Source: a virus
Virus record (IMG/VR): IMGVR_UViG_3300025141_015097
Span: 1-64,000 of that record
DNA length: 64,000 bases
Direction: 5' to 3' (one strand)
Within the stretch, counting starts at the first letter, position 1. Every line of letters begins with the position of its first letter. The notes beneath the pieces are model-generated. The model was given only the letters and a program-made list of their open reading frames with translations. It made no database searches and had not been told where the DNA came from. The position numbers and the translations under genes were made by a program. Of this stretch, positions 635 through 56,100 are shown in pieces.

Positions 635-817
635 TTATTTAGTTTGTGCCTTACTTCTTTTCTTAAGTCGCCTTCTTTTGTCAGATGGCTTTTCATAATA
701 CATGCGTTCTCTAAATTCTTCCATAATTTTTTCTTTACGAACCTTTCTGGAAAATCGCTTAATCAGATCTTCTGTCGTTTCTCTTCGCCTAGCCACTACT
801 TGTACATTAACTGCCAT
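635..817 (-). CDS. rpsU: Phage-encoded small ribosomal subunit protein bS21
   Basis: The 60-residue protein matches the bS21 family in length and layout: an N-terminal short strand, then a run of basic helices with the family pattern LIKRFSRKV (18-26), the stretch RERMYYEKPSDKRRR (37-51) and a Lys/Arg-rich tail. Cellular bS21 has the same helix followed by [RE]xxYEKP and a basic tail. bS21 binds the 30S platform near the 3' end of 16S rRNA and helps initiation. Phage-borne copies are documented in marine phages and may bias host ribosomes toward phage mRNAs. Here it sits between a head gene (828-1241) and the 159-residue gene, so it should be expressed late with virion proteins. The ATG at 817 lies 10 bases after the preceding stop. 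Confidence 0.85.
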   Translation of the reverse strand: MAVNVQVVARRRETTEDLIKRFSRKVRKEKIMEEFRERMYYEKPSDKRRRLKKRSKAQTK

Positions 818-827
818 TTTATCACCA

Positions 828-1241
828 CTACTTTATTAGATGTTTCCAAACATTTGAGCCCGGAAGTTGCGAAATGTCAATGCCAGCATCATCTGGGTCC
901 ACATTTGCAAGAGCAGAGCTTGGAGCGCTCGACTCATTTACACTGCCGGCGCCTCTTAAAGGTTTTGTGCCCTCAAAGACATCAATGCCGCCATATGCGC
1001 CAGTGCCAATCGCATCCAACAATTTCTTTTTGGACTCTGCCAATACTTTTTTGGTATCGTCTCGTCTGGGCGATCGTTTTTCTTGTTTTTCCACAGGTTT
1101 GGCTTCTTTAATAACTTGTTGCCCCGTGCCCTTCATAACTTCAGAGATAATGCCAGACAGCACGCCCTCCTCAAAAATTACTTCTTTGATACATTCCTTT
1201 ATTAAAGGCTTTAACATTTTTTTAAGTTGATCGCTTTTCAT
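828..1241 (-). CDS. Head-cluster protein of unknown function (137 aa)
   Basis: The N-terminus is amphipathic and helical (MKSDQLKKMLKPLIKECIKE) and continues into a hydrophobic stretch around 22-35. A charged Lys/Arg linker (about 45-75) and an acidic Ser/Ala-rich C-terminal part ending in WKHLIK follow. The start codon overlaps the protease stop by four bases (ATGA), so translation is probably coupled to the protease. I recall similar proteins beside the protease in other large myophages but know no function. In T4 the matching places hold small prohead core proteins (gp67, gp68); that is the most likely kind of role. Confidence 0.6.
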   Translation of the reverse strand: MKSDQLKKMLKPLIKECIKEVIFEEGVLSGIISEVMKGTGQQVIKEAKPVEKQEKRSPRRDDTKKVLAESKKKLLDAIGTGAYGGIDVFEGTKPLRGAGSVNESSAPSSALANVDPDDAGIDISQLPGSNVWKHLIK

Positions 1242-3012: not shown

Positions 3013-3830
3013 TGTTTTTGGGTCTCTCTTGTTAATTCTTGAATTTTAATAATTTGTTCTAAAACGCTTTCATTTATATGTTGACCTTTAAATCCATTCA
3101 GTATCTTTAAAACATTTTCAATCTTTGTTTTCATTTCCGAATCAGATAAGACATCTTTGTCGTTTAATAATAGTTTAGTTTCTTCTTTTAATCTTCCGAT
3201 CTCTTCATTAAGAAAAATCTTTAATTCTAGGCCGTTGTCCATAAAAGAAGAAATAAACTTTGATAACAGCTCTTTCTGCTCTGTATACATATTATCATAT
3301 GCCGCGTTGTATTGTTTGGCAAACGCCCTTAAAACAGAGTTTTTTATTTGAAGTTCGTTTTTCTTTTGCAGCTGCTTTTTTGAAATCATATGCTTTATAA
3401 GTTGGCTCTCTAACAAAACCTTATCTTTAATTGATATTTTTTTATTAAAAATTTGTGAAATGCTGGCGATGGTCCTATAATTGGGAACAAAATTAGTAAA
3501 CACGTTCGGCGTCAAACTCTTATTAACCCTGTTAATAAGTCGAGTTTGTTTTTTGTAAATTTCCCCTTGGCTAAGACCAGAATAAACACGCTTAACTTCT
3601 GTAATAATTTTTTCGGCGGCGGTCTTTTCAACATTCTTTGTTTCATATATGGTTCGATATAGATCAAGCTCTTCGGCTAAAACACTCCCCTTGCCAAAAA
3701 ACGTCTTTAACATTAAAACAATGTCCTTTTTCTTTGATTCGTCTTCTTGCAAAGAGGCCCGGGCCAGTTCTTTAACCAACATTTCAAAAAGAAAAGCCGT
3801 ATTTCTTCGCTTATTGTGCTTTAACTTCAT
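3009..3830 (-). CDS. Helical protein downstream of portal (273 aa), unknown
   Basis: I start the gene at the ATG at 3830 (MKLKHNKRRNTAFLFEMLVK) because GGAG lies about nine bases upstream. The frame is open eight codons further to a TTG, without comparable support. The protein is Lys/Glu-rich and almost wholly helical, with likely coiled coils in the second half (about 150-270). It begins inside the last 20 bases of the portal gene, so translation is coupled to portal. It could be a portal-associated or internal core protein; no family is recognised. Confidence 0.6.
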   Translation of the reverse strand: MKLKHNKRRNTAFLFEMLVKELARASLQEDESKKKDIVLMLKTFFGKGSVLAEELDLYRTIYETKNVEKTAAEKIITEVKRVYSGLSQGEIYKKQTRLINRVNKSLTPNVFTNFVPNYRTIASISQIFNKKISIKDKVLLESQLIKHMISKKQLQKKNELQIKNSVLRAFAKQYNAAYDNMYTEQKELLSKFISSFMDNGLELKIFLNEEIGRLKEETKLLLNDKDVLSDSEMKTKIENVLKILNGFKGQHINESVLEQIIKIQELTRETQKQ

Positions 3831-5877
3831 TATTTCTATTCTCCAAAGATTCAATCAACATCTTCAATTCGTTACTTGTTTGAAAAATATTTTTTTCAAT
3901 ATTACAATCATAATTAGGCTCTTCAGAAGATACAGTACCTTCTAATAATTCATTAATTGAGCCTTCCGCAATTCCTCTTGCTAAATGTCGCATATTATCC
4001 AACTCATGATAACCTTTGTGCGTGCGCCTTCTACCGCCTTGAGCGTGGCCACCCTGAGACATCATATTCTTTTTACGAGGCCCAGAACTTTTTCTTCTGT
4101 CTAGTGTGACGGGCTGGTACCATTTACCCTTTGCTCCCGCAGTGGTTGTTTGGTCTGGCAAGCCTAGAGGATTTTTCTTCACTCTTTTCCAATACCAACT
4201 AGAGTCTTCATCTCGCTTGCCCGGGCCGGCCTCGGGTGGCGTTGCCAAGAGCGTTGGTTCTTCTTCTAGTGCTGGTGCCGCTTCTTCTCCCCCGCCAAGC
4301 TCGGGCGCTTCGCCAAGATCTTCTCCCCCGCCAAGGTCTTCCATGCCTTCCATGCCACCCATACCCAAGCCGCCGGCCGCTTCCATACCAGCCGCTTCGC
4401 CAGTTACTTCAGCAATCTTAGCCATGCTTGCTTCAAGTTTCTTATCATAAAATCGTTCACGCTGATTGCGAATAAACTCTTCTTCAGAAATATTTAACAT
4501 ATTTTCGGATATCCAACGTTTACTAAAATAATTGGCGGCTGCAGCGTCGGCCGCTTCGATCTTTGCTTTCCACTGCTCAACATCTTGTAGCTGCGCAATC
4601 TTAGATGGGTTATACAAGTGGAATTTAAATGAAATCAAATCTTCACCTTTATAGCCCAATGTATAAAGATGAATTATTGCAAGCTTTTCTAGTTCAGATA
4701 TTATAGAACGCTGCAATCTTTGAATGGTTCTTGCAAAACGAATATCCTTTTGAGCCAGCGTTGTTTTATCTTCGGACGCAGCTTCTTGGCTGATCAAATA
4801 GGCGGCTGGTATCTTAATCGCTGAAAATAGCTTCTCTCGTAAATATTTTACATCTTCAATATCGTTGGCCCAAGTTTGGCCGCCAATAGTAGAAATTTCA
4901 GTTGCCTTTTGACCCCCGCGAACAGGTACAAAATAATCTTCTTCAATCGAAGCCGGGTTATATCTGAGATCGACTCTACCGTCTAAATGATTAACAGTCT
5001 GGTGACGCTTCATCGAGGTCATAACGCCCTGCATATATTGTTCTACATCTTCTGGAGGGATCCCGCCGACGTCGACATAAAAAGCACGTCGATCAGGAGC
5101 ACGGACAATGCGGTGCGCCATCATTGCATCTTCTAAAAGCGTAAGTTGGCGCCAAATTCTTCTTGCGGGGTCTAATATAGAAGTTCCATATGGTGCGTAT
5201 TTGTCGTTGCCCAAAATTCTAAAATGTCCAACTTGCCAGTTCTCCAAGGTCATACCTGCAGAGTTCCATTGATACTGAATATAATTGGGGTTAGTTGGAT
5301 CTTCGCCCTCCATCCTTTCGATTTCTTGACTTGGAAGCCCGATGACGCTCTTAATGCCAATTTTCTCATCAATATCTAGATAAAGGAAAAAATCACCATA
5401 TTTAACCAGATTTCTAGTCCAACCAAATAAATTAAATTCGACATTTAATACCTGATAAAGCAGCCCGTTTAAAATTTCTTTGATCTCTTCGTTTCTACAG
5501 TCAATTTTTAATATTTTACCATATTCTGAGTGGTGTGTAATTTCATCAGCATAAATATCCAATGCAGAGGACAACTCAGGAGAGAACTCCATTTGATCAA
5601 AATCTGCATATCGTTCGGCGCGATTCTGATTTATGGCCATCTGAGCCATCATATAATCATATGGATTATATGACTGCTTTTTGAAATCTTGGCCGCTGGT
5701 TGATTTAAATTTGCGCGAAAATCTGTCTAGTCTATTCCGCCGATCTTTTCTTATCTGCTGCTGCCGATAATTTATGATTGGGCCTGAAAACAGCTTAGTC
5801 AACCTCTGAAAAAGATTGTGCTGCGGATTTGCAGGGTTATTGGTGTTTCTATTTATTCTTTTATTTCTTGGTGCCAT
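3811..5877 (-). CDS. Portal vertex protein, T4 gp20 type
   Basis: This protein forms the dodecameric ring at one capsid vertex through which DNA enters and leaves. It is longer than T4 gp20 (688 against 524). The core is typical of the family: an N-terminal basic segment, then SPELSSALDIYADE (99-112), the LENWQVGHFRILG region near 210, and the stretch RIVRAPDRRAFYVDVGG near 257-273, with helical wing and crown parts to about 470. The extra length is a Gly/Glu/Ala-rich low-complexity linker (about 480-560) followed by a basic C-terminal part. It starts four bases after the terminase stop. Confidence 0.93.
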   Translation of the reverse strand: MAPRNKRINRNTNNPANPQHNLFQRLTKLFSGPIINYRQQQIRKDRRNRLDRFSRKFKSTSGQDFKKQSYNPYDYMMAQMAINQNRAERYADFDQMEFSPELSSALDIYADEITHHSEYGKILKIDCRNEEIKEILNGLLYQVLNVEFNLFGWTRNLVKYGDFFLYLDIDEKIGIKSVIGLPSQEIERMEGEDPTNPNYIQYQWNSAGMTLENWQVGHFRILGNDKYAPYGTSILDPARRIWRQLTLLEDAMMAHRIVRAPDRRAFYVDVGGIPPEDVEQYMQGVMTSMKRHQTVNHLDGRVDLRYNPASIEEDYFVPVRGGQKATEISTIGGQTWANDIEDVKYLREKLFSAIKIPAAYLISQEAASEDKTTLAQKDIRFARTIQRLQRSIISELEKLAIIHLYTLGYKGEDLISFKFHLYNPSKIAQLQDVEQWKAKIEAADAAAANYFSKRWISENMLNISEEEFIRNQRERFYDKKLEASMAKIAEVTGEAAGMEAAGGLGMGGMEGMEDLGGGEDLGEAPELGGGEEAAPALEEEPTLLATPPEAGPGKRDEDSSWYWKRVKKNPLGLPDQTTTAGAKGKWYQPVTLDRRKSSGPRKKNMMSQGGHAQGGRRRTHKGYHELDNMRHLARGIAEGSINELLEGTVSSEEPNYDCNIEKNIFQTSNELKMLIESLENRNNEVKAQ

Positions 5878-5881
5878 GATT

Positions 5882-7462
5882 CTATCCTATAAAGAATGGA
5901 AATCCTTCATCTTTTGTCGATATTCCCATGTGTTTCTTCCCTCTTGTATAGCCTCTCATACCTTCTATTTTTGTATCCATTCTCTGAGTCGACTTCATGA
6001 TGCTGCTTAGCATTGCTTTTTTGTATGCAACATCGTGCTGATTAATTACCAAGGCTGTATCTCTTACCCAGCAAGCAATTGCGCAGGCCATAACCAGATC
6101 ATCATTGTAACCCCTCATTGCTTGTGCTTTTCCGTTATGCCAAATAAAAGTTTTTAATTCTCCGATTAAACGAATTGAATGTGTCGTAATTACCTTGTTT
6201 CTTATTAATTCTTCTAGCTTCGCAATAATTAATGGTCGAGTTTTAACCGTTGTCGTAAAGCCCGGGGCTGTTGTTTTTTGATGTTCTGCTAAATATTGGT
6301 CGATGTGTTCGTGTGTTCCTTTTCGTGACCAATAAAGATTTGGATGGTTCATGCTGCGCAGTTTGTCCAGAACTGACATACCAATAGAATTGTTTTCAAC
6401 AACGGTTAAACAAAAGCCGTATTCTTTGCTTGTTTCATAAATTAGCGGAGCAAACTCATCTATTGCTAGCCTGCCACAATATTCGGCCACACACTCCATA
6501 TTATCAGAATTAAAAATTAAAAATGTTGAATTGTCTTGTCCGTCGCCGCGCGCGACATCGGCAGCCAAAAAATATTTCTTGTTGGGGTCGTGTCTTTCCC
6601 AAATCCATAAATTACGATCGAAGCCAGTTTTATAAATTGGGTCTTTAATATCTTTTCTTATTCTTTCTAGATCTTCGCCGGCTAGTAAAGTTTCACCAGA
6701 CATATTGAAATTACACTCCAACTCCTGCGCGATCTCTCGTCTAGACATTTTGCGAATTTCCTGTTCATACCAGCCCCGATCTCTTTCGGGGTGAACATCC
6801 CATGGCAACACAAGTGGATTAAAATCGTTTAAACCCTGCTCTGCTTCGCTGTACAGTTGATGAAATTTATTGCCTACGCCTTTTGGAGTCGAGGCAATAA
6901 TACAATCGCCACCGGTTGACAACGTTGGCTGTAAGCCCGCCCATAAATCATCCAAGGTGTCAATAATTGCCGCCTCATCAATAACCAGCAAAGACAATGC
7001 TTCAGAACGACCAGCATCGCCCGAAGTTGAGATTGCCTTCACTTCGCTTTCGTTGTCCAGCTTAAAAGAATTTCTATTGTCAATAACAATTTTAGATATC
7101 ATCATCCAGTCTGGTAACGACTTCATGGCCAGCTTTGTTTTCTTAACAAGATTGGCGGCAGTTTGTAATTTCGTTGCCAAAACAATCACATTTTTGCCAC
7201 GATGAAACAACATCAACCAAGCAACATATGCAGCGATTGTTGTTGATATTCCTAACTGTCTTGCTTTTAAAATAATATTATATCGATGATCAACAAAATC
7301 TTTTACTGCGTCTTCTTGAAAATCATATAAATTAAAAGGTATCAAACCTTTTATTGGGTGTGCAATTCTAATATAATTGTTAATAAAATAAACCGGGTCG
7401 CGCCCACATTTAATGAGTTCTTTTCTGATATCGGACTTTGTTAATTGAAAACGTTTTGCCAT
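5882..7462 (-). CDS. terL: Terminase large subunit, T4 gp17 type
   Basis: This is the motor that cuts concatemeric DNA and pumps it into the prohead. The ATPase half has the variant Walker A KARQLGIST (66-74), of the kind in T4 gp17, and Walker B LLVIDEAAI (158-166), followed by the coupling segment STPKG (191-195). The RNase H-like nuclease half has its first acidic residue in FLAADVARGD (298-307), further acidic positions in VVENN (about 356-360), and YNDDLVMACAIA near the end. At 526 residues it is slightly shorter than gp17. It lies directly upstream of portal; T4 has tail sheath and tube genes between the two. Confidence 0.95.
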   Translation of the reverse strand: MAKRFQLTKSDIRKELIKCGRDPVYFINNYIRIAHPIKGLIPFNLYDFQEDAVKDFVDHRYNIILKARQLGISTTIAAYVAWLMLFHRGKNVIVLATKLQTAANLVKKTKLAMKSLPDWMMISKIVIDNRNSFKLDNESEVKAISTSGDAGRSEALSLLVIDEAAIIDTLDDLWAGLQPTLSTGGDCIIASTPKGVGNKFHQLYSEAEQGLNDFNPLVLPWDVHPERDRGWYEQEIRKMSRREIAQELECNFNMSGETLLAGEDLERIRKDIKDPIYKTGFDRNLWIWERHDPNKKYFLAADVARGDGQDNSTFLIFNSDNMECVAEYCGRLAIDEFAPLIYETSKEYGFCLTVVENNSIGMSVLDKLRSMNHPNLYWSRKGTHEHIDQYLAEHQKTTAPGFTTTVKTRPLIIAKLEELIRNKVITTHSIRLIGELKTFIWHNGKAQAMRGYNDDLVMACAIACWVRDTALVINQHDVAYKKAMLSSIMKSTQRMDTKIEGMRGYTRGKKHMGISTKDEGFPFFIG

Positions 7463-10548: not shown

Positions 10549-13500
10549 CTACTGGTTTACATATGCAAAATGATTCTTTTTTGTAATGTCAATTGTCATA
10601 TCAACAGTATCTTTTAAAGACTCTATGTGAGTAATTAGTATCACAATATCAAAATAACTCTTCAGCATATCTAGAATCCGAGTAAAGCTTTCAAGGTGCT
10701 CTTCATCCAAAGCCGCTCCCGGCTCATCCAATATAATTAAATTGCACTTTGGCATATTGCTGATATTTAACAAAGCAATTCTAATTGCAATTGCAGCCAA
10801 TGTTTTTTCTGCTCCGGAGCCGTTTTCCAAAGGTCGTGGTTCGTGATTGGGGTGGTGGATGAAGATGTCTAACTTGTTGCCGTCCTTCTCAAAATAAACT
10901 TCAAAATCAACAATGTTGGCCAACACCTTTGAGATCTCTTCGTTGATAACAGGTAGCGCCTTGTTAATAATATCAAACGCAATGCCATTGCTGTGCATGC
11001 AGCGAAGGAATAAGTCTGTTGCAGCAAATTCTATTTGAAGCTTGGCCAACTCTTTCTTTTGTTCTTCAATATTTTCAAGCTTCTGTATTAATGCACCATG
11101 CTTAACAGCAAGCTCATAAATCTCTTCTTCACACGAATTCAAACTCTCGCTTAAGTTTTGTACAGATTGTTCTTGCTCTTTTTTCTCCTTTGCCAACTCA
11201 TTATAGTTTTCAATTGCTTCTTTGTTCTCATTATAATAGTCAATCTTTTTTTGGTGTTCAACAATATCATTTTTATATTCAGAAATTTTATTTAGATTTT
11301 TTTGAATATCTAGTTCATATGCTGCGTTTTCTGTCTGGGCGCGCACCTTTTTCCTCACAAGCCCTTCATGGCCTTGAATGTGAAGACGCACCTTGGGTGT
11401 ATCGAGCTTAACAATTTCATCATTTACTCCTTTTTTCTTAATTTTCAAATCTGAAATTGCTTTTTTAGTTGGTTCTATTTCTTGTGATGTTTTGTAAGCA
11501 TCCTTAATAAATCGGCAAGAAGTCAAGTAATTATCGCCGCACGGTATGCCCTTCAACACGCATTGTTGTTTTTCATATGAGTCAAGCGTTTGTTGTTTAA
11601 GGGCTGTTTCGCTAAGTAATTTTTCTAGCTGCTTTTGTTTTTCAACTTCAACCTTAAGTTTGTTTTTGAGAGCGGCCAAATCAAAACCTTCCAAACGGTC
11701 GCTGGTTTGTTTCAAAAAAGAATTGTTTAGTTTAATTTGTTTTTCAAATTCTTTATTTGTTGTTTCTAGTTGACTCATCAATTGAGTTTTATCTTTTTTA
11801 TCATTTAAACTTTTCTCAATATCAATCGGTTCAGTCGGAACTGCAGCAATTTTCTTTTCTAACTCTGCAATTATTACTTTGGCATCTTCGATATCCTTTT
11901 TGGTTTTGTTGTATAAGCCCTTCTTCTTGAGAGTATCTGCTTCATTAGCGAAGAGATCTTTTCTGGCAATTGATATTTCTTCATCATATTCTTTTTCCTC
12001 CATGCGGCGCAGAGTGCCTTTGAGCCCCGCTGATTCATCCTTGGCTAATTTGAACTTCTTTTCAAAAAACTCCAAGTCCAAAAACTTGGCAAGAATCTCT
12101 TTACGCCTCGTTGAGCCTTCATTAATAAACTGCATAGAGCCAAGCTGAGAAGACATCGATGTTAAAAGAAAGTCTTCTAAGGATCCAAATATCTTTTTAA
12201 TGTTTCTGTCTGTCCCGTGTCTTTCCGTGGAATTAAAATTATAAGTTCTATTCAACACATTGTCAGTACACGCAAACTCTACATCAGTTTTTGCTTCGTT
12301 TGTAACTTGGCCTTTAAGTTTCTTAACATATTTATCCGACTGCCTTGAAATCTTGTAAGTTTTATTACCAACTTCAATCTCCACCTCGCCAGAGCCCTGT
12401 TCTTTGTGTTCGTTGATAATGTTGTAATTCTTTCGAATGTTCTTAGAAGTATTGTTATAAATCGTGTAGAGTAAACTATCGACAACGCTAGACTTACCAC
12501 TGTAGTTTTTACCAAATATTCCGACAGTGCCAGCAAGTTTAGTAAAGTCCAATTCGTTATCCTCCCCATAATTGAAGAGATTGTTCCATTTGAAGTTTTT
12601 AATTTTCCATGAGACATTTCTGGTGGTTTCCTCATCGGACTCTGCCAAGGCATTATATTTTGCATTAAGAGTATATATTTCATTTAATGTTTCTTCATCA
12701 ACATTGTACTCTTTTAAATACTCTGTTATAAGTTTTTCTTGCACACTTTGATCACGTAAATTTTCATGTATAATACAATCTACCTCTTTTTCAACACTTA
12801 TGCGCTGTTGGCCGTGGGCTCTATTCAAAAAAGAAATAGATTCTGGTTTAAAGCGTTTCTTGGCGATATCCACGGCTTTTCTGAAGATTTCGACGCTCTG
12901 GTTGTTTGAGGAAACTAAACGCAGCCTAGCGCCTGCTGGGGGGTTTAAACCCTTGGGGATTCTGCCCTTGGGAGTAAGGTTGATCGTGACGAAAGGTTTG
13001 GGGTTAATTAGCTGATGGAAATCACAAGTAAAGTTTTCTTTGTCCTTGATATCCCAAAGTAAAAAACCCTTATCTAACGACTCTCCAAAGTTCTGCTGAA
13101 TGAGAGAACCGGGATATCGAGCTTTGCCATGGTCGTCAACAATCTGATTTGTTCTGTGAATGTCACCCAAGAGGCCATAATCGAAGTTTTCTAAGAAATC
13201 CATATCAATTTCGCCGTGTTCCATAATCCAGCCAGTATCCGTTTTAGACCCAGCTACGGCGCCATGGTATAGTGCGAGGTTGGTTTTGTTCGGATCTGAC
13301 GGGGCCGACCATTTGTCCTGATCTAAAATAGAAAGAACATTGAGTACAATGTTTTCTCCCAAGTCCACCTCTTTTGTATTTTTGTGGAAGTGAATATTGG
13401 GATCTTCTAGCGCCTCAGTAATCGGCGTAATCGCGTCAAGGCGGCTTGAGTTCTTGACATTGCAGTCGTGATTGCCCAAAATCATGTGCAGTGGAGCAAT

Positions 13501-13707
13501 CTCTGCTAAGTTGGTAAATAGCCACGAAGTCAGGTTAAAATACTCTGGACTTAAAATAGATTTAGTGTGGGCAGTGTCGCCCGTATTAACAATTATATCT
13601 GGCTTAAGCTCTTTTAATTTTTCAAACAACTGTTGAAATATTTCTCTGTATTCATAGTGGTATTTATAGTTCCGCACATGAATGTCGCTAATATGCGCAA
13701 TCTTCAT
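10549..13707 (-). CDS. Fused SbcD-SbcC recombination nuclease (T4 gp47-gp46 equivalent)
   Basis: One 1052-residue chain carries both halves of the Mre11-Rad50 complex, which processes DNA ends in recombination-dependent replication. Residues 1 to about 340 are a calcineurin-like nuclease: DIH (8-10), GDT (43-45), GNHD (78-81), YHGA (147-150) and GDIH (181-184). The SMC-type ATPase follows, with Walker A GKNYSGKS (399-406), long coiled coils, signature ENGSGAEK and Walker B LIILDEP (990-996). The hook has Cys at 716, 723 and 731 in place of a plain CxxC. T4 encodes the two parts as separate genes. I see no frameshift joining them, so the fusion looks genuine. Confidence 0.9.
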   Translation of the reverse strand: MKIAHISDIHVRNYKYHYEYREIFQQLFEKLKELKPDIIVNTGDTAHTKSILSPEYFNLTSWLFTNLAEIAPLHMILGNHDCNVKNSSRLDAITPITEALEDPNIHFHKNTKEVDLGENIVLNVLSILDQDKWSAPSDPNKTNLALYHGAVAGSKTDTGWIMEHGEIDMDFLENFDYGLLGDIHRTNQIVDDHGKARYPGSLIQQNFGESLDKGFLLWDIKDKENFTCDFHQLINPKPFVTINLTPKGRIPKGLNPPAGARLRLVSSNNQSVEIFRKAVDIAKKRFKPESISFLNRAHGQQRISVEKEVDCIIHENLRDQSVQEKLITEYLKEYNVDEETLNEIYTLNAKYNALAESDEETTRNVSWKIKNFKWNNLFNYGEDNELDFTKLAGTVGIFGKNYSGKSSVVDSLLYTIYNNTSKNIRKNYNIINEHKEQGSGEVEIEVGNKTYKISRQSDKYVKKLKGQVTNEAKTDVEFACTDNVLNRTYNFNSTERHGTDRNIKKIFGSLEDFLLTSMSSQLGSMQFINEGSTRRKEILAKFLDLEFFEKKFKLAKDESAGLKGTLRRMEEKEYDEEISIARKDLFANEADTLKKKGLYNKTKKDIEDAKVIIAELEKKIAAVPTEPIDIEKSLNDKKDKTQLMSQLETTNKEFEKQIKLNNSFLKQTSDRLEGFDLAALKNKLKVEVEKQKQLEKLLSETALKQQTLDSYEKQQCVLKGIPCGDNYLTSCRFIKDAYKTSQEIEPTKKAISDLKIKKKGVNDEIVKLDTPKVRLHIQGHEGLVRKKVRAQTENAAYELDIQKNLNKISEYKNDIVEHQKKIDYYNENKEAIENYNELAKEKKEQEQSVQNLSESLNSCEEEIYELAVKHGALIQKLENIEEQKKELAKLQIEFAATDLFLRCMHSNGIAFDIINKALPVINEEISKVLANIVDFEVYFEKDGNKLDIFIHHPNHEPRPLENGSGAEKTLAAIAIRIALLNISNMPKCNLIILDEPGAALDEEHLESFTRILDMLKSYFDIVILITHIESLKDTVDMTIDITKKNHFAYVNQ

Positions 13708-40856: not shown

Positions 40857-40906
40857 CTTTTATCTTCTCGCTCTATTCAATAATTAGTAAATAAAGTTTA
40901 TTTCGG

Positions 40907-42904
40907 TCAACTAAGAAAATCAGTCTCACATTTTTCTGGCGGAACAGATGGAATTAAAGCTTCGCCCGGGGCTGGAGGCGTTACCCAGCCGGCTCCGCGC
41001 ACAACATTTGCCAAAGCAGCATCGATTTCATTTTCCGGATTTAATGCATTGGTCTTGAGATCTGCTCCGGGTAGATTTTGTCGAAAGAAAGTTTCGTTGT
41101 TGCTCTCGCCGCCATCAGCGGGTATTACATGGCCATGATCTTTTTTAAACCCCTCATTTTTTTCTCTTGCCGGCAGCGTCCAGGCCATGTCGTCGCCGGC
41201 GCCAACTTTGATGGTATAATGAACTTCAGTTTCCAAAAATTTAATAAAAGTGCCCGGCATTGTTGTTAAATATCTAGAAAAAAGATGGGACACGGTGTTA
41301 AAAGCCAGTTGATGAGCACTAGGGGGCACACTTTTAATTGTATCCCACGAGATACCTAGATGAGACCTGTGTACCGGCTCCCATAAATTATATGGCTTTT
41401 GATGATGGCCAAAATCAGTATGATTCCAGTTGCCGTTACCGGGGCCGAAGCGATAGTCATGATATTTGTTGTTGTTTTTGCTTGTTAGTGTTGTTGGCCA
41501 CGACGTGTCAAGAACCTTTCTTCCGTATAATTCAAATGAACTAAGGGGATCTACATTTCCAGCCGCATTGGCCTCTGCTTTCTCTTTTTCAGTTAAGGCG
41601 CCGGCGGGCCGACCATCTTTAGGCCATAAAGTGGCCACTTTTGTATGATGGCCGACTCCATACAGTATCGACCATGGTCCGACGCCTCGGGTGATGGCTA
41701 GCCAAAGATCTTCTGGAGTTTCCATAATATTCTCTGCCATTTTATCATTCGAATCAGACCATGGCACGATATATCCTTTACTGCCGGCTGGTTTAATTCC
41801 GTGGAATGGAATATCGTTTTTATCTAAAGCTAATGCAAAATCGCCAATTTTAAATGGATTCGGCCATGGAAACTGGCCCGCGATGCGCGAAAAGCTATCG
41901 CCGACGTTGCCGGACTTGCAGGGCTGGTACCAGCCGCCATCGACGAATTCGGCGTCGTCACAGGAGCCAATGTGCATACATTTCTTGCCATCATACCGCC
42001 AGCCGCGATGCTCGCAGGGGAAGCCGATCTTTTCTCCTGCGGTGACGTACTGCGGCGCGTGGTGACCAGTTGCGAGTACAAGATCTGGAAATGCGTGTGT
42101 AAAAAAATTATTTGAATACCACGCGTCACTCTTAGGAGTGTTGACATCTTTCTTGAATTCAGCCTTGTCCTTATACAGCGTTGGAATAAATCGTATAAAA
42201 CTCATTGGCATATAATTTTGATATTTGTTGGGGCCCGTCGTCTTCAAAAATCGATCTGTGCTTTTCAAAACATCCTTCCAAGTGTGGTCATATTTGGCGG
42301 CCTCAAAATATAATTGATTTTTCTCTACAGTACCCACATCGATCACATAAGAGTCCATTATATCTTGGTACCCGCCATAAACCTCTTCTTTGGTTTTTAA
42401 CTTTTCCCACAAATCTTTTATTGGTTTTTCGGCACTTTCCCAAAGTTTATCCCATATTTTTTTAAGATATTCTTCTCCCAATGTTGCTAAAGTAATAGGA
42501 TTACCAGACGAATCTTTGGCGCCGGATTCAATCTTTTTAACAGATTCTTCAAAACTATAATCTTTCTTCTCAAAATAAAGACTTCCTACGGCGACTGCCG
42601 ACATAAGGTAATAATACCATGGCGTTATGCCTCCAAAATTGTTACTCCATGTGTCATCTTTTTCTTCTTCTTCGCAGCCAAATGCTGTACCATTAGAACA
42701 AAGTTTCGACTTGTCTTGTTTTAGTTCTCTTATAAATTCTTTAAATAAAACATCTCTTAAGCCACTTGTGCCTCCTTTTTGCCACACAGCAATAGGCAAT
42801 AACAATTGTGGCAAGAACAAAAGCTCTCTGTATAAAAAGACGCGCATGCGCTCAGTAATGAGAATGTGCATCATTGTTTTTACGTATCCTGATTTAACTT
42901 TCAT
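40907..42904 (-). CDS. Virion protein upstream of gp25 (665 aa), unknown
   Basis: I start at the ATG at 42904 (MKVKSGYVKTMMHIL), one base after the stop of the Cys-rich gene. The frame stays open to 43420, but that part overlaps the convincing Cys-rich end of the upstream protein and has an unlike composition. The protein is soluble, Trp/Lys/Pro-rich, with a Cys cluster near 305-330 (CEHRGWRYDGKKC, CDDAEF, PCKSG). No family is recognised. Position before gp25 and gp6 suggests a baseplate or hub-associated component. Confidence 0.65.
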   Translation of the reverse strand: MKVKSGYVKTMMHILITERMRVFLYRELLFLPQLLLPIAVWQKGGTSGLRDVLFKEFIRELKQDKSKLCSNGTAFGCEEEEKDDTWSNNFGGITPWYYYLMSAVAVGSLYFEKKDYSFEESVKKIESGAKDSSGNPITLATLGEEYLKKIWDKLWESAEKPIKDLWEKLKTKEEVYGGYQDIMDSYVIDVGTVEKNQLYFEAAKYDHTWKDVLKSTDRFLKTTGPNKYQNYMPMSFIRFIPTLYKDKAEFKKDVNTPKSDAWYSNNFFTHAFPDLVLATGHHAPQYVTAGEKIGFPCEHRGWRYDGKKCMHIGSCDDAEFVDGGWYQPCKSGNVGDSFSRIAGQFPWPNPFKIGDFALALDKNDIPFHGIKPAGSKGYIVPWSDSNDKMAENIMETPEDLWLAITRGVGPWSILYGVGHHTKVATLWPKDGRPAGALTEKEKAEANAAGNVDPLSSFELYGRKVLDTSWPTTLTSKNNNKYHDYRFGPGNGNWNHTDFGHHQKPYNLWEPVHRSHLGISWDTIKSVPPSAHQLAFNTVSHLFSRYLTTMPGTFIKFLETEVHYTIKVGAGDDMAWTLPAREKNEGFKKDHGHVIPADGGESNNETFFRQNLPGADLKTNALNPENEIDAALANVVRGAGWVTPPAPGEALIPSVPPEKCETDFLS

Positions 42905-42905
42905 T

Positions 42906-49938: not shown

Positions 49939-50862
49939 TTACTCTATTCCTCGTACATTTGGATACTTGTTTTCAAACCACTCACAAACCTCTTTTAAGG
50001 CCACACAAAAGTCCGTATAATCCTCTTGTTTCCACCCTAGTTGTATTAGTTTTTTGTTTGTAGATGGCTTTTTCAATTGACCCGTGGGCGCGGTTGTATC
50101 CCAAATAATTTCTCCTTGAAAATTATAAATTTCGGATACCATGTCAACTATTTCTTTAATAGAAATTTGTTGTATGTTGCCTACATTTATCGGTTCGCGT
50201 GCGTTATAATGCTCCAGCAAAAACATTATAATTCTTGCCAAATCATTAGAAAAGGTGAACTCTCTAAGAGGAAGGCCGTCGCCCCAAAAAACAGCACTCG
50301 TTTTATTTTTTCTAGCCTCATAAACCTTTCTTATTATAGCCGGCAAGACATGTGAATTTTCTAAATGAAAATTATCATGCGTGCCAAACAAGTTATTAGG
50401 TACGATGGTTGTAAAATTACAGCCGTATTGATCTCTATAAGCTCGTGACTGTACATCAAGCATTCTCTTTACATGTGCGTATGGATAATTGGAAGAATGT
50501 GGCGGTCCATTATGTATTTGCTCTTCAGTCAGTGGATAACGAGGGTTATCTGGATAAACACAGGTACTTAAAACTGAAATGACCTTTTTTGCTTGAAATT
50601 TTCGGCACGCCTCTAGCACATTTGTATTTATGAGAATGTTATCATAATAAAACTCTCCTAAATAATCCATATTCGCCTTAAGGCCTCCCACTCGCGCTGC
50701 CAAATGAATAACTGTATGTGGTTTATGCAGACAAAAAATTTCTTCTACATCCTTTAAACTCCGTAAATCGCCATCCTTCGAAGACAAAAACACTGCATCG
50801 GGGATCAATTTTTGAAGGGCGTGGCCAACCATGCCAGAGCCACCTGTTACCATTATAGTCAT
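49939..50862 (-). CDS. fcl: GDP-L-fucose synthase
   Basis: It converts GDP-4-keto-6-deoxymannose to GDP-L-fucose by epimerisation and NADPH-dependent reduction. The 307-residue protein has the nucleotide motif GGSGMVG (7-13), the catalytic YxxxK as YAHVK (128-132), Cys101 in LSTCVYP and His171 in HLENSHV. These correspond to the Cys and His used for epimerisation in E. coli Fcl. All catalytic residues are in place, so I expect activity. It is the last gene of the cassette and lies 24 bases after Gmd, which supplies its substrate. Confidence 0.93.
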   Translation of the reverse strand: MTIMVTGGSGMVGHALQKLIPDAVFLSSKDGDLRSLKDVEEIFCLHKPHTVIHLAARVGGLKANMDYLGEFYYDNILINTNVLEACRKFQAKKVISVLSTCVYPDNPRYPLTEEQIHNGPPHSSNYPYAHVKRMLDVQSRAYRDQYGCNFTTIVPNNLFGTHDNFHLENSHVLPAIIRKVYEARKNKTSAVFWGDGLPLREFTFSNDLARIIMFLLEHYNAREPINVGNIQQISIKEIVDMVSEIYNFQGEIIWDTTAPTGQLKKPSTNKKLIQLGWKQEDYTDFCVALKEVCEWFENKYPNVRGIE

Positions 50863-50886
50863 GTAGTTTTTTTTCTCTTATTAGTC

Positions 50887-51858
50887 TTAAATTATTTTCA
50901 TCCAATGATCAACCATTTCGTCCATCATTTTATCAAATGAATACTCGGGGTTCCATCCTAAAACCTCTCTGGTTTTTGAAGAGTCACCCTTTAAATATTT
51001 TAATTCTTCAGGGCGCATGTATTTTGGATTTTGAACCACATAGTCCTTATAATCCAACCCTAGTTTAGTAAAAACCGTTTCGCACAAATCTCTAACGGTG
51101 TGCGAGACACCGGTCGCGACAATAAAATCGTCAGGAGTATCGTGATTTATAATCATATGCATGGCCCTTACATAGTCCTTAGAGTGGCCCCAATCTCTTG
51201 AAGAGTCCATATTCCCCAATTCTAGTTTGTCCCTCAAGCCTTTTTTAATCTGTACTGCTGTTTTAACAACTTTGTTTGTTACAAAGTTAGACCCTCGGCG
51301 CGGAGATTCATGATTAAATAAAACACCATTACAGGCGTAAAGCTTATAAGCGCTTCTGTAATGTCTAACTAAATTATATCCCATAACTTTTGCGCAGCCA
51401 TAAGGACTCACCGGATTCATAGGTGTTGTAAGTCTTTGGGCGCCGTCAGCATCAGCCGAGTTGCCAAACATTTCCGAAGACGATGCTTGATAAAATTTAG
51501 CATTAGGGGCTAACGTCCTAAAGACCTCCAACATGTTCAAAACGCCGATCGCATTAGTTTGGATAGTGAAAGATGGCATGTCAAAACTTACGCGCACATG
51601 GCTCATTGCCGCAAGATTATAAATTTCATCAGGTTGTACTTCAGACACGATCCGAACTAAAGAAGGATAATCTAACAAGTCGCCATAAAAAGTTGTAATC
51701 TTATCTCTAATCTGTAAAAGGCGGCTATCTTGATTTTCAGATACCGAAAGTCGCCTTACAACACCATAAATTTCATAACCCTTCTCTAATAAATATTCAG
51801 TTAAATAACTTCCATCTTGGCCCGTAATTCCTGTAATTAATGCTCTTTTTTTCCTCAT
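50887..51858 (-). CDS. gmd: GDP-mannose 4,6-dehydratase
   Basis: It makes GDP-4-keto-6-deoxy-D-mannose from GDP-mannose, the first committed step to GDP-fucose, rhamnose, perosamine and related sugars. The 323-residue protein shows the motif GITGQDG (10-16), the catalytic triad context SSSEMFG (126-132) and SPYGCAK with Tyr153 and Lys157, and the family stretches GVLFNHESPRRG and NMDSSRDWGHSKDYV. Its length fits the short form of the family. It follows the aminotransferase-like gene with an ATGA overlap. Confidence 0.95.
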   Translation of the reverse strand: MRKKRALITGITGQDGSYLTEYLLEKGYEIYGVVRRLSVSENQDSRLLQIRDKITTFYGDLLDYPSLVRIVSEVQPDEIYNLAAMSHVRVSFDMPSFTIQTNAIGVLNMLEVFRTLAPNAKFYQASSSEMFGNSADADGAQRLTTPMNPVSPYGCAKVMGYNLVRHYRSAYKLYACNGVLFNHESPRRGSNFVTNKVVKTAVQIKKGLRDKLELGNMDSSRDWGHSKDYVRAMHMIINHDTPDDFIVATGVSHTVRDLCETVFTKLGLDYKDYVVQNPKYMRPEELKYLKGDSSKTREVLGWNPEYSFDKMMDEMVDHWMKII

Positions 51859-52562
51859 TTAAAAACCTCTTTTTGTGATAAATCAGAATAGTTTTCCCAA
51901 CAACCCGAATCTTTATTTACTTGAGGCAATTTATCCATTATCAAAATTCCTCGCGCTGCAGATTCGGGCGTCATGTATACGTGCCACCCCAACATCTCAA
52001 AATCATCATCTGGGTAATAGACATCTAAATCTCTCCCATCATAAGAAGCTTTCTTTAGCCACCTATACGCTTCTTCAGAGTCCGTCAAAATTACCCCCCC
52101 CTTTCCTATAGGAAGCCGCTTTTTAATTTGGAATGAGACAACCTGTAAAGCGTTTTCACCGACATACATATCTTTTGTAAATCTTACAGCCGAATCATAA
52201 ATTGGGTAGGGCTTAAGCTGATAAAGACCGCTCCATTCTAAGTATTCAAAATTAACTTTGCATCCTGCATGAATTATTTGCATCGGCACAGAAACATAAG
52301 TATGCTTAGGTATTGTAATAATACCGCGCGCTTTAAAATATTTTAAGCTTAAAAATAATCCGCTGGAACATGAATCTACTGTGACGGCATATTTACAGCC
52401 AGCAAATTTTGCCATTTTCTGTTCAAATATCTCTATTATGTCTCTCGGATCATCCCATTCATATCCAGCCCTTCTAACGGCCTCCAGTTCCGGCCTATCC
52501 CACCCCTTGGGTGGTCTTCCAATGGGCCAGCTATTATACTTAACTTCATTATTTAGTTTCAT
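51855..52562 (-). CDS. Short DegT/DnrJ-type PLP aminotransferase-like protein
   Basis: Family members transfer an amino group to a nucleotide keto-sugar. This 235-residue protein keeps the PLP-site features: Asp123 in IYDSAVR and the lysine motif SFQIKKRLPIGKGG (143-156), where Lys148 aligns with the Schiff-base lysine. Usual members have about 370-400 residues, so the C-terminal domain is missing, with no frameshift seen here. Next to Gmd, a full-length enzyme would suggest GDP-perosamine formation. In this short form it may act on another substrate, need a partner, or be inactive. The start has GGGAG upstream. Confidence 0.75.
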   Translation of the reverse strand: MKLNNEVKYNSWPIGRPPKGWDRPELEAVRRAGYEWDDPRDIIEIFEQKMAKFAGCKYAVTVDSCSSGLFLSLKYFKARGIITIPKHTYVSVPMQIIHAGCKVNFEYLEWSGLYQLKPYPIYDSAVRFTKDMYVGENALQVVSFQIKKRLPIGKGGVILTDSEEAYRWLKKASYDGRDLDVYYPDDDFEMLGWHVYMTPESAARGILIMDKLPQVNKDSGCWENYSDLSQKEVFK

Positions 52563-53186
52563 CTATACTCCCTCTACAACAAAAATACTTGATCTGCCCA
52601 CTTTTTTCATTAAATCAGAATCATATTTCTTTAGAGCTTCAGGTAAATAATCGTGCCCATAATCATAAGTGCGACCAAATCTTTGATAACTTAACCCCAA
52701 GCTCGACAAAGCCTTTTCCCAAAATTCTGGACTTTCAAACCTTGTCATCTCTCCCTCGTCATCTAAATTCTGTCTTAAATTATTAGGAACATCAAAAACA
52801 ATCCTTGACGCCTTTTGACTCTGAATTCTTAAAATCGACTCAATGTCTTTATCATTAAAATGTTCTAACACTCCTTGATGGATAATTGTATCATAGACCT
52901 CTTTATAACTTGATTCGTTCAAAATATCACCAACATATAATTTATTTTTTAAATGAGGGTAGCGCGATGATGCTACCTCAACAGCCGCCGGCTCTAAATC
53001 AAAACCAACTATATCATAATCTAAATCTCTTAACAGCTCGGTGGTAGTCCCAAACCCAAAGCCAGCCTCAAGAATTTTACCACTTGGCGTAGTGTGGTCC
53101 GCTATACACTGAATAAATTGCTCTTGTATTATTGAGCTTCTGAATAAAGTAAATCTCTTTTTGGTTAGCCACTTTTCCCAAACCAT
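52563..53186 (-). CDS. SAM-dependent methyltransferase (class I)
   Basis: The 207-residue protein has the Rossmann-like SAM site ILEAGFGFGTT (38-48) and the acidic ribose contact in VGFDLEP (60-66). Motif DTIIHQGVLEHF (about 99-110) fits a small-molecule methyltransferase. Probable substrates are the sugar intermediates or finished glycan of this cassette. It ends directly against the aminotransferase-like gene and starts two bases from the cupin gene with AGGAG upstream. Confidence 0.85.
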   Translation of the reverse strand: MVWEKWLTKKRFTLFRSSIIQEQFIQCIADHTTPSGKILEAGFGFGTTTELLRDLDYDIVGFDLEPAAVEVASSRYPHLKNKLYVGDILNESSYKEVYDTIIHQGVLEHFNDKDIESILRIQSQKASRIVFDVPNNLRQNLDDEGEMTRFESPEFWEKALSSLGLSYQRFGRTYDYGHDYLPEALKKYDSDLMKKVGRSSIFVVEGV

Positions 53187-53187
53187 T

Positions 53188-53607
53188 CTATTCTCCTAAT
53201 ATAAACTCTTTGTCGTTTTTTTGTCCTTCATAAGGCCCCGTCTTATATTCGTATACAATGGTGCCCTCTTCTAAAATTTCATATGTGTGGCCACCGTATA
53301 AAGTAAAGCTAGCATCTCCCGGCTCTAAGATGGGAGTAGCTATAATGCTATCATCTATATCATAAAAAATACATTTCACCCTCCCCCTGATCACTATCCA
53401 CGACTCTTGAGCGATTTGTTCAGGATACCGGCGATCTTTTAAAACATGCTTGTGTGGAAGGAAAGTTGTTCCTTTTTTCATATGAAGACTAGCACATTGA
53501 ATAAAATTATTTGGTGGAACTAACTCAGTTCTATTTTGTATTTCGTCGACGCGGTTAACCAAATGCAATAATTTATTGGGCTGAATTTTTGAATATATTT
53601 TCTCCAT
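53188..53607 (-). CDS. WbuC-like cupin protein
   Basis: The 139-residue protein has a cupin fold signature: PHKH (51-54), Glu in EQIAQESWIVIRG (64-75), LEPGDA (94-99) and His107 in GGHTYE, ending in EYKTGPYEG. The last pattern matches WbuC-type cupins of O-antigen clusters, whose reaction is not firmly established. The metal ligands (two His, Glu, His) are present. It lies between two methyltransferase genes and is probably part of the same sugar pathway. Confidence 0.75.
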   Translation of the reverse strand: MEKIYSKIQPNKLLHLVNRVDEIQNRTELVPPNNFIQCASLHMKKGTTFLPHKHVLKDRRYPEQIAQESWIVIRGRVKCIFYDIDDSIIATPILEPGDASFTLYGGHTYEILEEGTIVYEYKTGPYEGQKNDKEFILGE

Positions 53608-53653
53608 ATCCCACCTCTCTTGCGTTGCGTAATATTTTTTCTAGATTGTTCAT
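53573..53653 (-). CDS. Possible 26-codon upstream peptide
   Basis: A start at 53653 with AAGGA seven bases upstream opens a frame of 26 codons (MNNLEKILRNAREVGYGENI...) that ends with TAA 35 bases inside the cupin gene in another frame. It fills most of the gap between the TylF-like gene and the cupin. It could couple or tune cupin translation, or be a remnant. No match is known. Confidence 0.3.
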   Translation of the reverse strand: MNNLEKILRNAREVGYGENIFKNSAQ

Positions 53654-53674
53654 TATTATTTCCTTAATAAAATT

Positions 53675-54319
53675 TTATAATATTTTGCACGCTGCTTGTT
53701 GGCCGGGAGCGGCAGTATAAGCGATCCACTCAAAATTTATGTCATTTTCAGCAACATATTCCATAAAAGCCTTATATTCATGCAAATGATAATTTGGATA
53801 ATTGTACAATTCGTCAAATAATATAACTGTCCCGGGAACGATTTGATTTTTTAAATACTTAAATACCGTCTTCGTCGAGTTATATAAGTCGCAATCAACG
53901 TGTAAAAAAGCCACATTTTCTTTGTGTTTTTCTACAAAAGTAGGCAACGTTTCCTCAAATAAACCATCTATTATTTTTAAACGTTCTACTTGAGGTATAA
54001 CTCTGGCCTCTGTGCCAAACAAACATCCTCTAGGTAAAACGCGTGTGTCGGATGTTACCCAATCCTCTGGTAAGCCTCTAAACCAATCAAAGCCATATAA
54101 ATGCTTGTCTGGTGGCATCATCTTTATAATCTCGGCAGCTGTTGCGCCGGAACAAACACCAAACTCAAGCCATTGGCCATCAACACTCACCGCATCTATA
54201 CAATACTTAACATATGTTTCGTATCTTTTTATAAGCTGGTGTGGTGGAAATTCTTTAGCCTTAGAATTGTTAAAATTTATGTGCGGGAATTCAGCAACAG
54301 CAAACTCAAAAGATTTCAT
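53675..54319 (-). CDS. TylF-like SAM methyltransferase
   Basis: The 214-residue protein shows LEFGVCSGAT (51-60) as the SAM site, FLHVDCDLYNSTK (138-150) and VILFDELYNYPN (165-176), with the pattern of acidic metal ligands (Asp142, Asp169 region) seen in the TylF family, which O-methylates sugars. GGGGGAAAATAA stands before the start. It overlaps the fucosyltransferase-like gene by 14 bases. An O-methylated deoxysugar is a reasonable product of the cassette, by inference. Confidence 0.85.
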   Translation of the reverse strand: MKSFEFAVAEFPHINFNNSKAKEFPPHQLIKRYETYVKYCIDAVSVDGQWLEFGVCSGATAAEIIKMMPPDKHLYGFDWFRGLPEDWVTSDTRVLPRGCLFGTEARVIPQVERLKIIDGLFEETLPTFVEKHKENVAFLHVDCDLYNSTKTVFKYLKNQIVPGTVILFDELYNYPNYHLHEYKAFMEYVAENDINFEWIAYTAAPGQQAACKIL

Positions 54320-55235
54320 TTATTTTCCCCCACGTATTTTTACCTGTCGTAATGGCCTCATGAATAGTGGGCCATATATTGTATTTATTTAATATTAATT
54401 CTCTGGCCTTGCTTAAGGCAGGTATCCTTTTTTCGTAATCGCTATTTTTGACAATATCATGAATCCTGTGTGTCTCAGTCGGATTTGTGGCGTCAAATGT
54501 TATATACGATCCTTCAGGGAAAAATTCTGACATATTTGTGCAGCCCCAGTATATTGGTACTGTCCAAGATAAAATTGCATCTGTAAATTGAGTTCCAAAA
54601 TAATTTTTATATTGTCCATTATCAAAAGCCAAACAATATTGATATTCTTTTTGCTTATTAAATTTATTTTCTACATAATCAGCGCCTTGGCCGCCATAAC
54701 AAAGAAGCTGTCGTATATTTCCAAACAACTCGATTTCATTTCCGTATTCCCAAACAAATTTTCGAATAAAATTAACTCGTTTTTTATGACCATCTAAAAA
54801 AGTTTTGTTTGATTGAACACATATCAACTTTTTTTCTTTTATGGGAAGTTGTTCAAAGCTCATCTCACTTAAAGTGTCGTATGACATCGCCACGCCTCCG
54901 ACGCGGCGAGGATAAACCCACTTTGTATACAAATATGATGACTCGTCTAGAAAAGAGAATTTTTTTGCATTTGGAATATGATCAATTCTTCCGCCGCCGA
55001 TCGGCTCTCTTGAAAAATAATAAACCCTAGACACATCTGGAATTGGGGCGTCTGTATAATCCTGTACAATATAATAATCTGCCTCCTCGATGTCTAAAGT
55101 TGCTTCCATGTTTTTCCACTTGCCAGCGAGGCCGGGAGTTTGGAGTTTCAGCGTTTCAAACATAACCTTCGAAGTTTCACCCCACGCAGGCATAAAATAT
55201 ATTTTGATTTTTTGTTTATCAAAACTGTGCGGCAT
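54306..55235 (-). CDS. GT10 fucosyltransferase-like protein
   Basis: GT10 enzymes transfer fucose from GDP-fucose, usually to GlcNAc in alpha-1,3 or 1,4 linkage. The 309-residue protein has the C-terminal donor-site layout of the family: YQYCLAFDNG (198-207), then a stretch ending TDAILSWTVPIYWGC (218-232) and MSEFFPEGSYITFD (235-248). At the position where most members have VTEK it has FGTQ (213-216), so a normally conserved Lys is replaced. With gmd and fcl in the same operon, GDP-fucose is the likely donor. GAGGAAAAA precedes the ATG. Confidence 0.75.
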   Translation of the reverse strand: MPHSFDKQKIKIYFMPAWGETSKVMFETLKLQTPGLAGKWKNMEATLDIEEADYYIVQDYTDAPIPDVSRVYYFSREPIGGGRIDHIPNAKKFSFLDESSYLYTKWVYPRRVGGVAMSYDTLSEMSFEQLPIKEKKLICVQSNKTFLDGHKKRVNFIRKFVWEYGNEIELFGNIRQLLCYGGQGADYVENKFNKQKEYQYCLAFDNGQYKNYFGTQFTDAILSWTVPIYWGCTNMSEFFPEGSYITFDATNPTETHRIHDIVKNSDYEKRIPALSKARELILNKYNIWPTIHEAITTGKNTWGKINEIF

Positions 55236-56100
55236 TATATTTTTCCTCTGAAAATCTTTTTTTCCAATAACTTAACGTTGCTTTCTGTAAGTTTGTTTTC
55301 TTGCCAATCAAATAATCATATTGTTCATTCAAATATTTTTCTGTCAACTCTTTTACATCATTATATACTAATATTGGTAAATCTTCATAAAACTCTATAT
55401 TAATGTGTCTAGGAATAATTGGCACAGCACCAACGTATATTGCTTGCCAAACTCTACCACAATCGACACCATTGCCCAAAGGAGAAATAACAAATTTATG
55501 ATTGTAAAGCTCTTGATAATAATCTTTTATAGAAACAAACCCATCTGATTTTTCGTAATCTTTTGGGGGAATATCACAAGCTTTTTCAGTAACCCATGGC
55601 TTATCTTTAAAATGTTCATATATTGGCCTTCGATGTTGAGGGTTTGTGTGGATACCAAAATTCATATAAACTAAATTTTGAAATTTCTTAGGTGCAAGAG
55701 TTTCTTTTATTAAAACAAAATCGTGTATATCTTTTCGGTCTGCATATTTTTCAATCCCAATCCACGTAGCTCCGGTCGAACCGATCGGTATTGATATCAA
55801 ACGTGGATTTTTATAATCCACATTTTGAGCAAACCACCTATAAACATTGGGTGGCGCTCGTTTAAACAGCCGCTCTCCAATATTAATATCGCTATTTTGT
55901 GTTACAAGAATATATTGAGTGCTAAAATTTTTTATGCATTCAGCAAAAAAGCTCAGCACATAATCTGTTTTGCAAAAAATTATAAAAGCTTTGCCCGGAT
56001 GGTGGGGGAGCGCAGCAGAGGGAACATATGTGTGCTCACAACACCAATCTCTTAAACGATCGCCGGTGATACGGTCGACCTGTGATACAGTCGTTTTCAC
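55219..56100 (-). CDS. Exostosin-like (GT47-type) glycosyltransferase
   Basis: The 293-residue protein carries the donor-site pattern KFVISPLGNGVDCGRVWQAI (202-221) followed by GAVPIIPRH, as in exostosin/GT47 and related GT-B enzymes. An N-terminal Rossmann-like half precedes it. The start is a GTG at 56100, with no clear ribosome site, four bases from the previous stop; no good ATG alternative exists. It overlaps the GT10-like gene by 17 bases. Donor and acceptor are unknown. Confidence 0.7.
   Translation of the reverse strand: MKTTVSQVDRITGDRLRDWCCEHTYVPSAALPHHPGKAFIIFCKTDYVLSFFAECIKNFSTQYILVTQNSDINIGERLFKRAPPNVYRWFAQNVDYKNPRLISIPIGSTGATWIGIEKYADRKDIHDFVLIKETLAPKKFQNLVYMNFGIHTNPQHRRPIYEHFKDKPWVTEKACDIPPKDYEKSDGFVSIKDYYQELYNHKFVISPLGNGVDCGRVWQAIYVGAVPIIPRHINIEFYEDLPILVYNDVKELTEKYLNEQYDYLIGKKTNLQKATLSYWKKRFSEEKYNAAQF

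Follow-up and report, generated by a model that had tools for sequence, protein, structure and literature searches.

A bS21 gene in the phage head module

The window analyzed here, a stretch of 64,000 bases, comprises bases 1 to 64,000 of a 67,508-base virus record. On its minus strand, positions 635 to 817 (ATG at 817) encode a 60-residue protein, MAVNVQVVARRRETTEDLIKRFSRKVRKEKIMEEFRERMYYEKPSDKRRRLKKRSKAQTK, which the preliminary description had read as ribosomal protein bS21 (S21). Profile searches bear this out. The protein matches Pfam family PF01165 (E = 3.1e-14; 52.9 bits against a cut-off of 27), the PHROGs family phrog_21469, "ribosomal protein S21" (2.8e-9), and bS21 chains in the PDB (down to 2.1e-7), and it scores 40.5 bits against the NCBIfam equivalog TIGR00030, for which the cut-off is 28.95. 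An AlphaFold2 model computed from 55 window and viral-contig sequences (pLDDT, 87.6) is a helical hairpin, the two-helix fold of bS21. All 17 Foldseek matches to this model are ribosome chains of bacterial, chloroplast, or mitochondrial origin; their E values are weak (best, 0.022; none below 0.001) because the chain is short, and structural Z scores against ribosomal chains range from 4.8 to 6.7. Profiles and predicted structure thus confirm the assignment of the gene as a genuine bS21 of a virus of bacteria.

The ribosome-binding core, consisting of the Y/F-x-K-P-S motif and helix 1, is retained across the lineage. At the position of Tyr54 in Flavobacterium johnsoniae bS21, the window protein has Ala57, with the register taken from the sequence of 7JIL chain z. 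The bS21-based search of viral contigs relied mainly on the YEKPSDKR stretch, and a tblastn search of phage records with the 60-residue protein returned no match. Cellular bS21s were rejected as a guide to the host: the best matches, at 51 to 55% over part of the protein, were scattered among phyla, and that scan covered the YEKPSDKR stretch only. No RNA structure was found in the bS21 mRNA of the window (z = 0.21).

The surrounding genes confirm that bS21 sits in a T4-type head module in which all genes are codirectional. In minus-strand order, these encode the terminase large subunit (TerL; 5882 to 7462; phrog_2, 6.9e-51; PF03237), a portal protein of the T4 gp20 type (3811 to 5877; PF07230, 2.6e-73), proteins of ~280 and ~190 residues, a DUF1360 protein, a small open reading frame (ORF), a prohead core serine protease of the T4 gp21 type (1238 to 1855; PF03420, 4.9e-29; phrog_207), a 137-residue protein termed X136 (828 to 1241), bS21, a fast-diverging protein of 159 residues (124 to 603), and the scaffold, or prohead core, protein, whose gene start (1 to 41, MSSMLEQAIIDAA) is cut by the record end. 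Neither X136 nor the 159-residue protein has a Pfam or PHROGs match. Placement of bS21 between prohead protease and scaffold, as originally described, was therefore right in substance, with one ORF intervening on either side.

The same arrangement extends to relatives. In L001, a viral contig with a bS21 93% identical to that of the window, the scaffold gene is complete and is followed by the major capsid protein (MCP) gene. Two other contigs (L002 and L003) and further IMG/VR contigs share the gene order of the window, except that in L003 bS21 is followed by another gene. Wherever relatives carry the head module, their bS21 is codirectional with the head genes, as it is in the window.

Both genes flanking bS21 have features of their own. 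The gene at 124 to 603 shares only 48% identical bases with its L001 counterpart, compared to 91 to 96% for its neighbors, and another gene takes its place in L003; its product is perhaps a surface or decoration protein. X136, which is specific to the clade of the window, has a conserved N-terminal LKPLIKECIKEVIFEEG motif and a C-terminal motif of the DPGVDIS type and may belong to the prohead core or be targeted to the capsid. An obligatory partnership between X136 and bS21 was rejected, since X136 does not extend beyond the clade of the window; in the Mel-like clade, named here for Microcystis phage Mel-JY01, the place before bS21 is taken by another protein.

Inheritance of bS21 with the prohead protease

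Similarity of the protease or the capsid protein, irrespective of bS21, was the basis for selecting loci from the IMG/VR records, which are fragments; the best 80 loci were taken per search, and two added protease queries, headed by Flavobacterium phage immuto and by Mel-JY01, extended the sample to the opposite side of the family. Among the matches listed, 36 of the 37 loci covering both protease and MCP had a bS21 profile match in between, and the remaining locus, L186, has a diverged bS21-like ORF at the same place. With duplicates removed and L186 counted, bS21 was found between protease and MCP in 77 of 102 distinct loci among the matches listed, including all 30 of those nearest the window. 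It was absent from the other 25, of which 18 form one clade with immuto. Inspection by eye of the interval in ten bS21-lacking loci revealed no bS21-like ORF, and PF01165 had no match in the complete 160-kb immuto genome or in a 162-kb record of the same clade. Each of five bS21-carrying records of 160 to 203 kb gave one PF01165 match.

On a quick protease tree (114 rows, 220 columns), the presence of bS21 requires four changes, of which starred branches force two; the window falls within a starred clade of 41 rows, all with bS21. Thirteen rows, including the window, had been added to the tree for having bS21 and are excluded from the counts of 77 and 25 among 102. Distances between bS21 proteins correlate with those between the proteases (Mantel r = 0.65; 0 of 999 permutations as high), with median distances of 0.72 for bS21 and 0.49 for the protease. 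Since bS21 is present in 77 of 102 loci and diverges in step with the protease, it appears as a long-inherited core gene rather than a sporadic import. It is an inherited, long-resident component of the head module in a large lineage of T4-type myoviruses.

At the codon level, four replacement and three silent changes over 60 codons separate the bS21 genes of the window and L001 (dN, 0.029; dS, 0.085), too few alone for a test of selection. Silent differences from L001 (where the gene lies at 1388 to 1570) affect 3 of 56 unchanged residues in bS21 and 46 of 199 in the protease (Fisher P = 0.002), reflecting local recombination or constraint. The IMG number of one bS21-carrying relative, L170 (IMGVR_UViG_2684622992_000002), departs from the 33000xxxxx pattern common for metagenomes; L170 may represent a single cell or an isolate, from which a host might be learned.

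Comparison with known bS21 phages

The bS21 of the window is a known type of gene, and phage bS21 genes located near the prohead protease and expressed late have been published (Chen 2022; PMC9723584). In that survey, a prohead protease lies within ten genes of bS21 in 310 of 900 published bS21 phages. As in the window, bS21 of the Chen 2022 phages is close to the TerL, portal, prohead protease, and MCP genes, and in their lake phages it is transcribed with the capsid genes even though the region is not one operon (PMC9723584). In these lake phages, with predicted Bacteroidetes hosts, bS21 and the structural genes run on opposite strands, whereas in the window they share one. Their complete genomes span 293 to 331 kb, compared to 160 to 203 kb for the window's large relatives; the Tyr54 position stays aromatic in their clades but is alanine in the window; and they differ from the window in the use of Shine-Dalgarno (SD) sites, which is strong in the latter.

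The isolate Mel-JY01 (PP395634) has the same layout: a gene annotated as RpsU in the order protease, hypothetical protein, bS21, and, further on, capsid, all on one strand, as in the window. However, its bS21 is only 28% identical to that of the window, with the motif YIKPSEER, and the protein preceding it belongs to another family than X136. Pelagibacter phage HTVC008M encodes a bS21 of the same family, but the gene is located by CobS, Hsp20, and replication genes, outside the head module. Immuto (NC_055915) shares the TerL-portal-protease-scaffold-MCP backbone but has no bS21 match and almost no SD sites, and in the T4-type relatives Melnitz and DSL-LC03 (Kyanoviridae) the interval from protease to scaffold is free of annotated genes. 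What is new here is the recognition of bS21 as a core head-module gene in loci sampled without it, its codivergence with the protease, and its association with SD use.

Shine-Dalgarno sites and bS21

The abundance of GGAG sites before genes, remarked on in the preliminary description, is real: with gene starts set by rule rather than by annotation, GGAG, GAGG, or AGGA occurs at the right distance from 50% of 50 window starts, compared to 5.4% of 313 internal ATGs. The further proposal that they are the sequences read by a phage-altered ribosome is not supported in that form. They are ordinary SD sequences, with no sign of a phage-specific code; since they are complements of the canonical anti-SD, any SD-using ribosome would read them. 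Strong SD use in the window speaks against a Bacteroidota host, and Ala57 in place of an aromatic residue would be consistent with an SD-reading ribosome, since the aromatic Tyr54 of F. johnsoniae bS21 helps to block the anti-SD.

The bS21 gene itself has a predicted ribosome-binding site at 818 to 832 (minus strand), an extended SD, GGTGAT, located 3 bases before the ATG, with an anti-SD duplex energy of −7.7 kcal/mol. Autoregulation through an extended SD, as in Flavobacterium rpsU, was considered and rejected as a general property of the lineage, in which the median for bS21 SDs is −4.4 kcal/mol, compared to −6.4 to −7.8 kcal/mol for head genes.

Across relatives, SD sites precede 227 of 349 starts (65%) in bS21-carrying loci near the window, 176 of 365 (48%) in other bS21-carrying loci, and 42 of 97 (43%) in Mel-like loci with bS21. 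The corresponding figures are 4 of 125 (3%) in immuto-like loci, which lack bS21, and 12 of 60 in other bS21-lacking loci. Two loci without bS21, L435 and L447, nevertheless use SDs. This link between bS21 presence and SD use is only suggestive: the association comes down to about four changes on the tree and two to four independent pairs, too few for paired contrasts to be significant. Both traits could obviously share host phylum as a cause, because the ribosomes of Bacteroidia do not recognize SDs (PMC9976891). We find it rather doubtful that bS21 presence depends on SD use, being kept where late mRNAs carry SDs and lost with SD-ignoring hosts, in which case SD-led initiation of late mRNAs would be the specific target of phage bS21. 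A relation between an aromatic residue at position 54 and low SD use among bS21-carrying loci (Mann-Whitney P = 0.0014, uncorrected) was set aside; it involves five changes on the tree and finds no support in independent pairs.

Timing and a candidate late promoter

A search for the T4 consensus late promoter, TATAAATA, gave matches at chance level in the window; a variant, ACTATTTATT, was found instead. In 484 kb from the clade of the window, the corresponding motif, ACTA[T/C]TTA[T/C]T, has 70 sense occurrences and a single antisense one. In 24 of 38 clade loci the motif is found upstream of the scaffold gene; further copies lie upstream of apparent tail genes, and seven sites are near the protease start. 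We regard it as a candidate late promoter of this clade, distinct from the T4 consensus. In the window, ACTATTTATT is present on the minus strand upstream of the scaffold (73 to 82) and directly behind the bS21 stop codon (621 to 630). None of 39 clade loci has the motif directly before bS21, which would most simply be the last gene of a portal-protease unit.

Late expression of the window bS21, as initially proposed, is plausible and likely: other phages with bS21 have been reported to express it late (PMC9723584), and the motif precedes virion genes of the clade. What weighs on the other side is the position of the motif, behind bS21 in the window and directly in front of it in none of the 39 clade loci. 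A search of large relatives for a late sigma factor with PF04546 found nothing, a result that says little because PF04546 is not the T4 gp55 family.

Possible roles of the phage bS21

In bacteria, bS21 occupies the platform of the 30S subunit and abuts the 16S rRNA 3' end, the site of the anti-SD (PMC9723584, PMC9976891), and it joins ribosomes late and can dissociate (PMC9976891). Takeover of ribosomes at a late stage by bS21 phages has already been hypothesized (Mizuno 2019, PMC6375957; Chen 2022, PMC9723584). We consider it probable, on the evidence as a whole, that the window's inherited head-module bS21 enters the host 30S subunit in the later phase of infection and sustains SD-led initiation. 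The protein would be made in the middle-to-late phase together with the capsid proteins, would bind the host 30S platform beside the 16S rRNA 3' end, replacing or topping up the host bS21, and would keep SD-led initiation efficient during the mass production of capsid proteins. Entry into the host 30S in later infection is in itself likely, and the bS21 of HTVC008M was shown to enter E. coli ribosomes; these made only ~5% of the wild-type product (PMC6375957), so that incorporation does not necessarily help. Such a role fits the published idea that these phages adjust or maintain host ribosomes while building particles.

Whether the altered ribosome would also prefer phage over host mRNAs is a separate question, and here we lean slightly toward the negative. 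Of the original suggestion that it favors late mRNAs, the connection to SD-led initiation is compatible with the association between bS21 and SD use, while no preference for late mRNAs was shown. Against the proposed role as a whole speak the position of the candidate late promoter in the window, behind bS21 and not before it, the few changes on which the SD association is built, and the two SD-using loci that lack bS21.

The main rival is supply without bias: an extra, exchangeable bS21 would keep ribosomes complete during host shut-off, and all SD-led mRNAs would profit alike. The initiation sites of the window, ordinary SDs with nothing phage-specific about them, agree with such a role, as does a protein that joins late and can dissociate (PMC9976891), and the high expression of the module would suit a gene kept for dosage. 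On the other hand, bS21 diverges strongly between phages (median distance, 0.72) and its nearest cellular matches reach only 51 to 55% over part of the protein, while a gene kept purely for dosage might stay closer to host copies. We consider this reading possible but unlikely.

Conceivably, phage bS21 within the 30S subunit acts as an inhibitor that blocks or slows the translation of host mRNAs. The strongly reduced GFP synthesis by E. coli ribosomes with the HTVC008M protein (PMC6375957) could suggest as much. However, in that experiment the protein of a pelagiphage was combined with the ribosomes of E. coli; an inhibitor made with the capsid genes would hurt the phage's own peak synthesis, and a host shut-off factor would be expected early. 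An inhibitory role is thus improbable. We assign similarly little likelihood to a role outside the ribosome, in which a small basic RNA- or DNA-binding protein would act in head assembly or in the virion. Such a role would explain the fixed place between protease and scaffold, packaging has been raised as a possibility (Chen 2022, PMC9723584), and a bS21 acting outside the ribosome has been proposed for the OLE RNP (PMC12054373). However, the ribosome-binding core is kept across the lineage, immuto-type heads assemble without bS21, and other phages encode it outside the head module. A neutral passenger or a recent capture of a host gene, for which the small size of the gene and the repeated exchange of bS21 between phages and hosts (PMC6375957) might speak, can be virtually dismissed, since the distribution of bS21 and its divergence in step with the protease already contradict it and each large bS21-carrying record tested has a single copy.

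For the idea of a specialized ribosome, the bS21-keeping lineage and its sister clades without bS21, mostly also without SDs, offer a natural comparison, and the isolate Mel-JY01, with the same layout, offers a starting point for testing.

Other features of the window

Between large minus-strand ORFs, a region of ~2 kb (40857 to 42905) contains small ORFs only and no clear long gene. A 1,052-residue ORF at 10549 to 13707 (minus strand) joins a calcineurin-type phosphoesterase to an SMC/RecN-type ATPase, as if T4 gp47 and gp46 (Mre11-Rad50 type) had been fused. A minus-strand cluster at 49939 to 56100 is devoted to sugars and surface glycans, with genes of the GDP-mannose dehydratase type, nucleotide-sugar epimerases, a DegT aminotransferase, methyltransferases, and a fucosyltransferase-like protein. 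The phage also encodes a protein combining B12-binding and radical SAM domains (57965 to 59821, minus strand).
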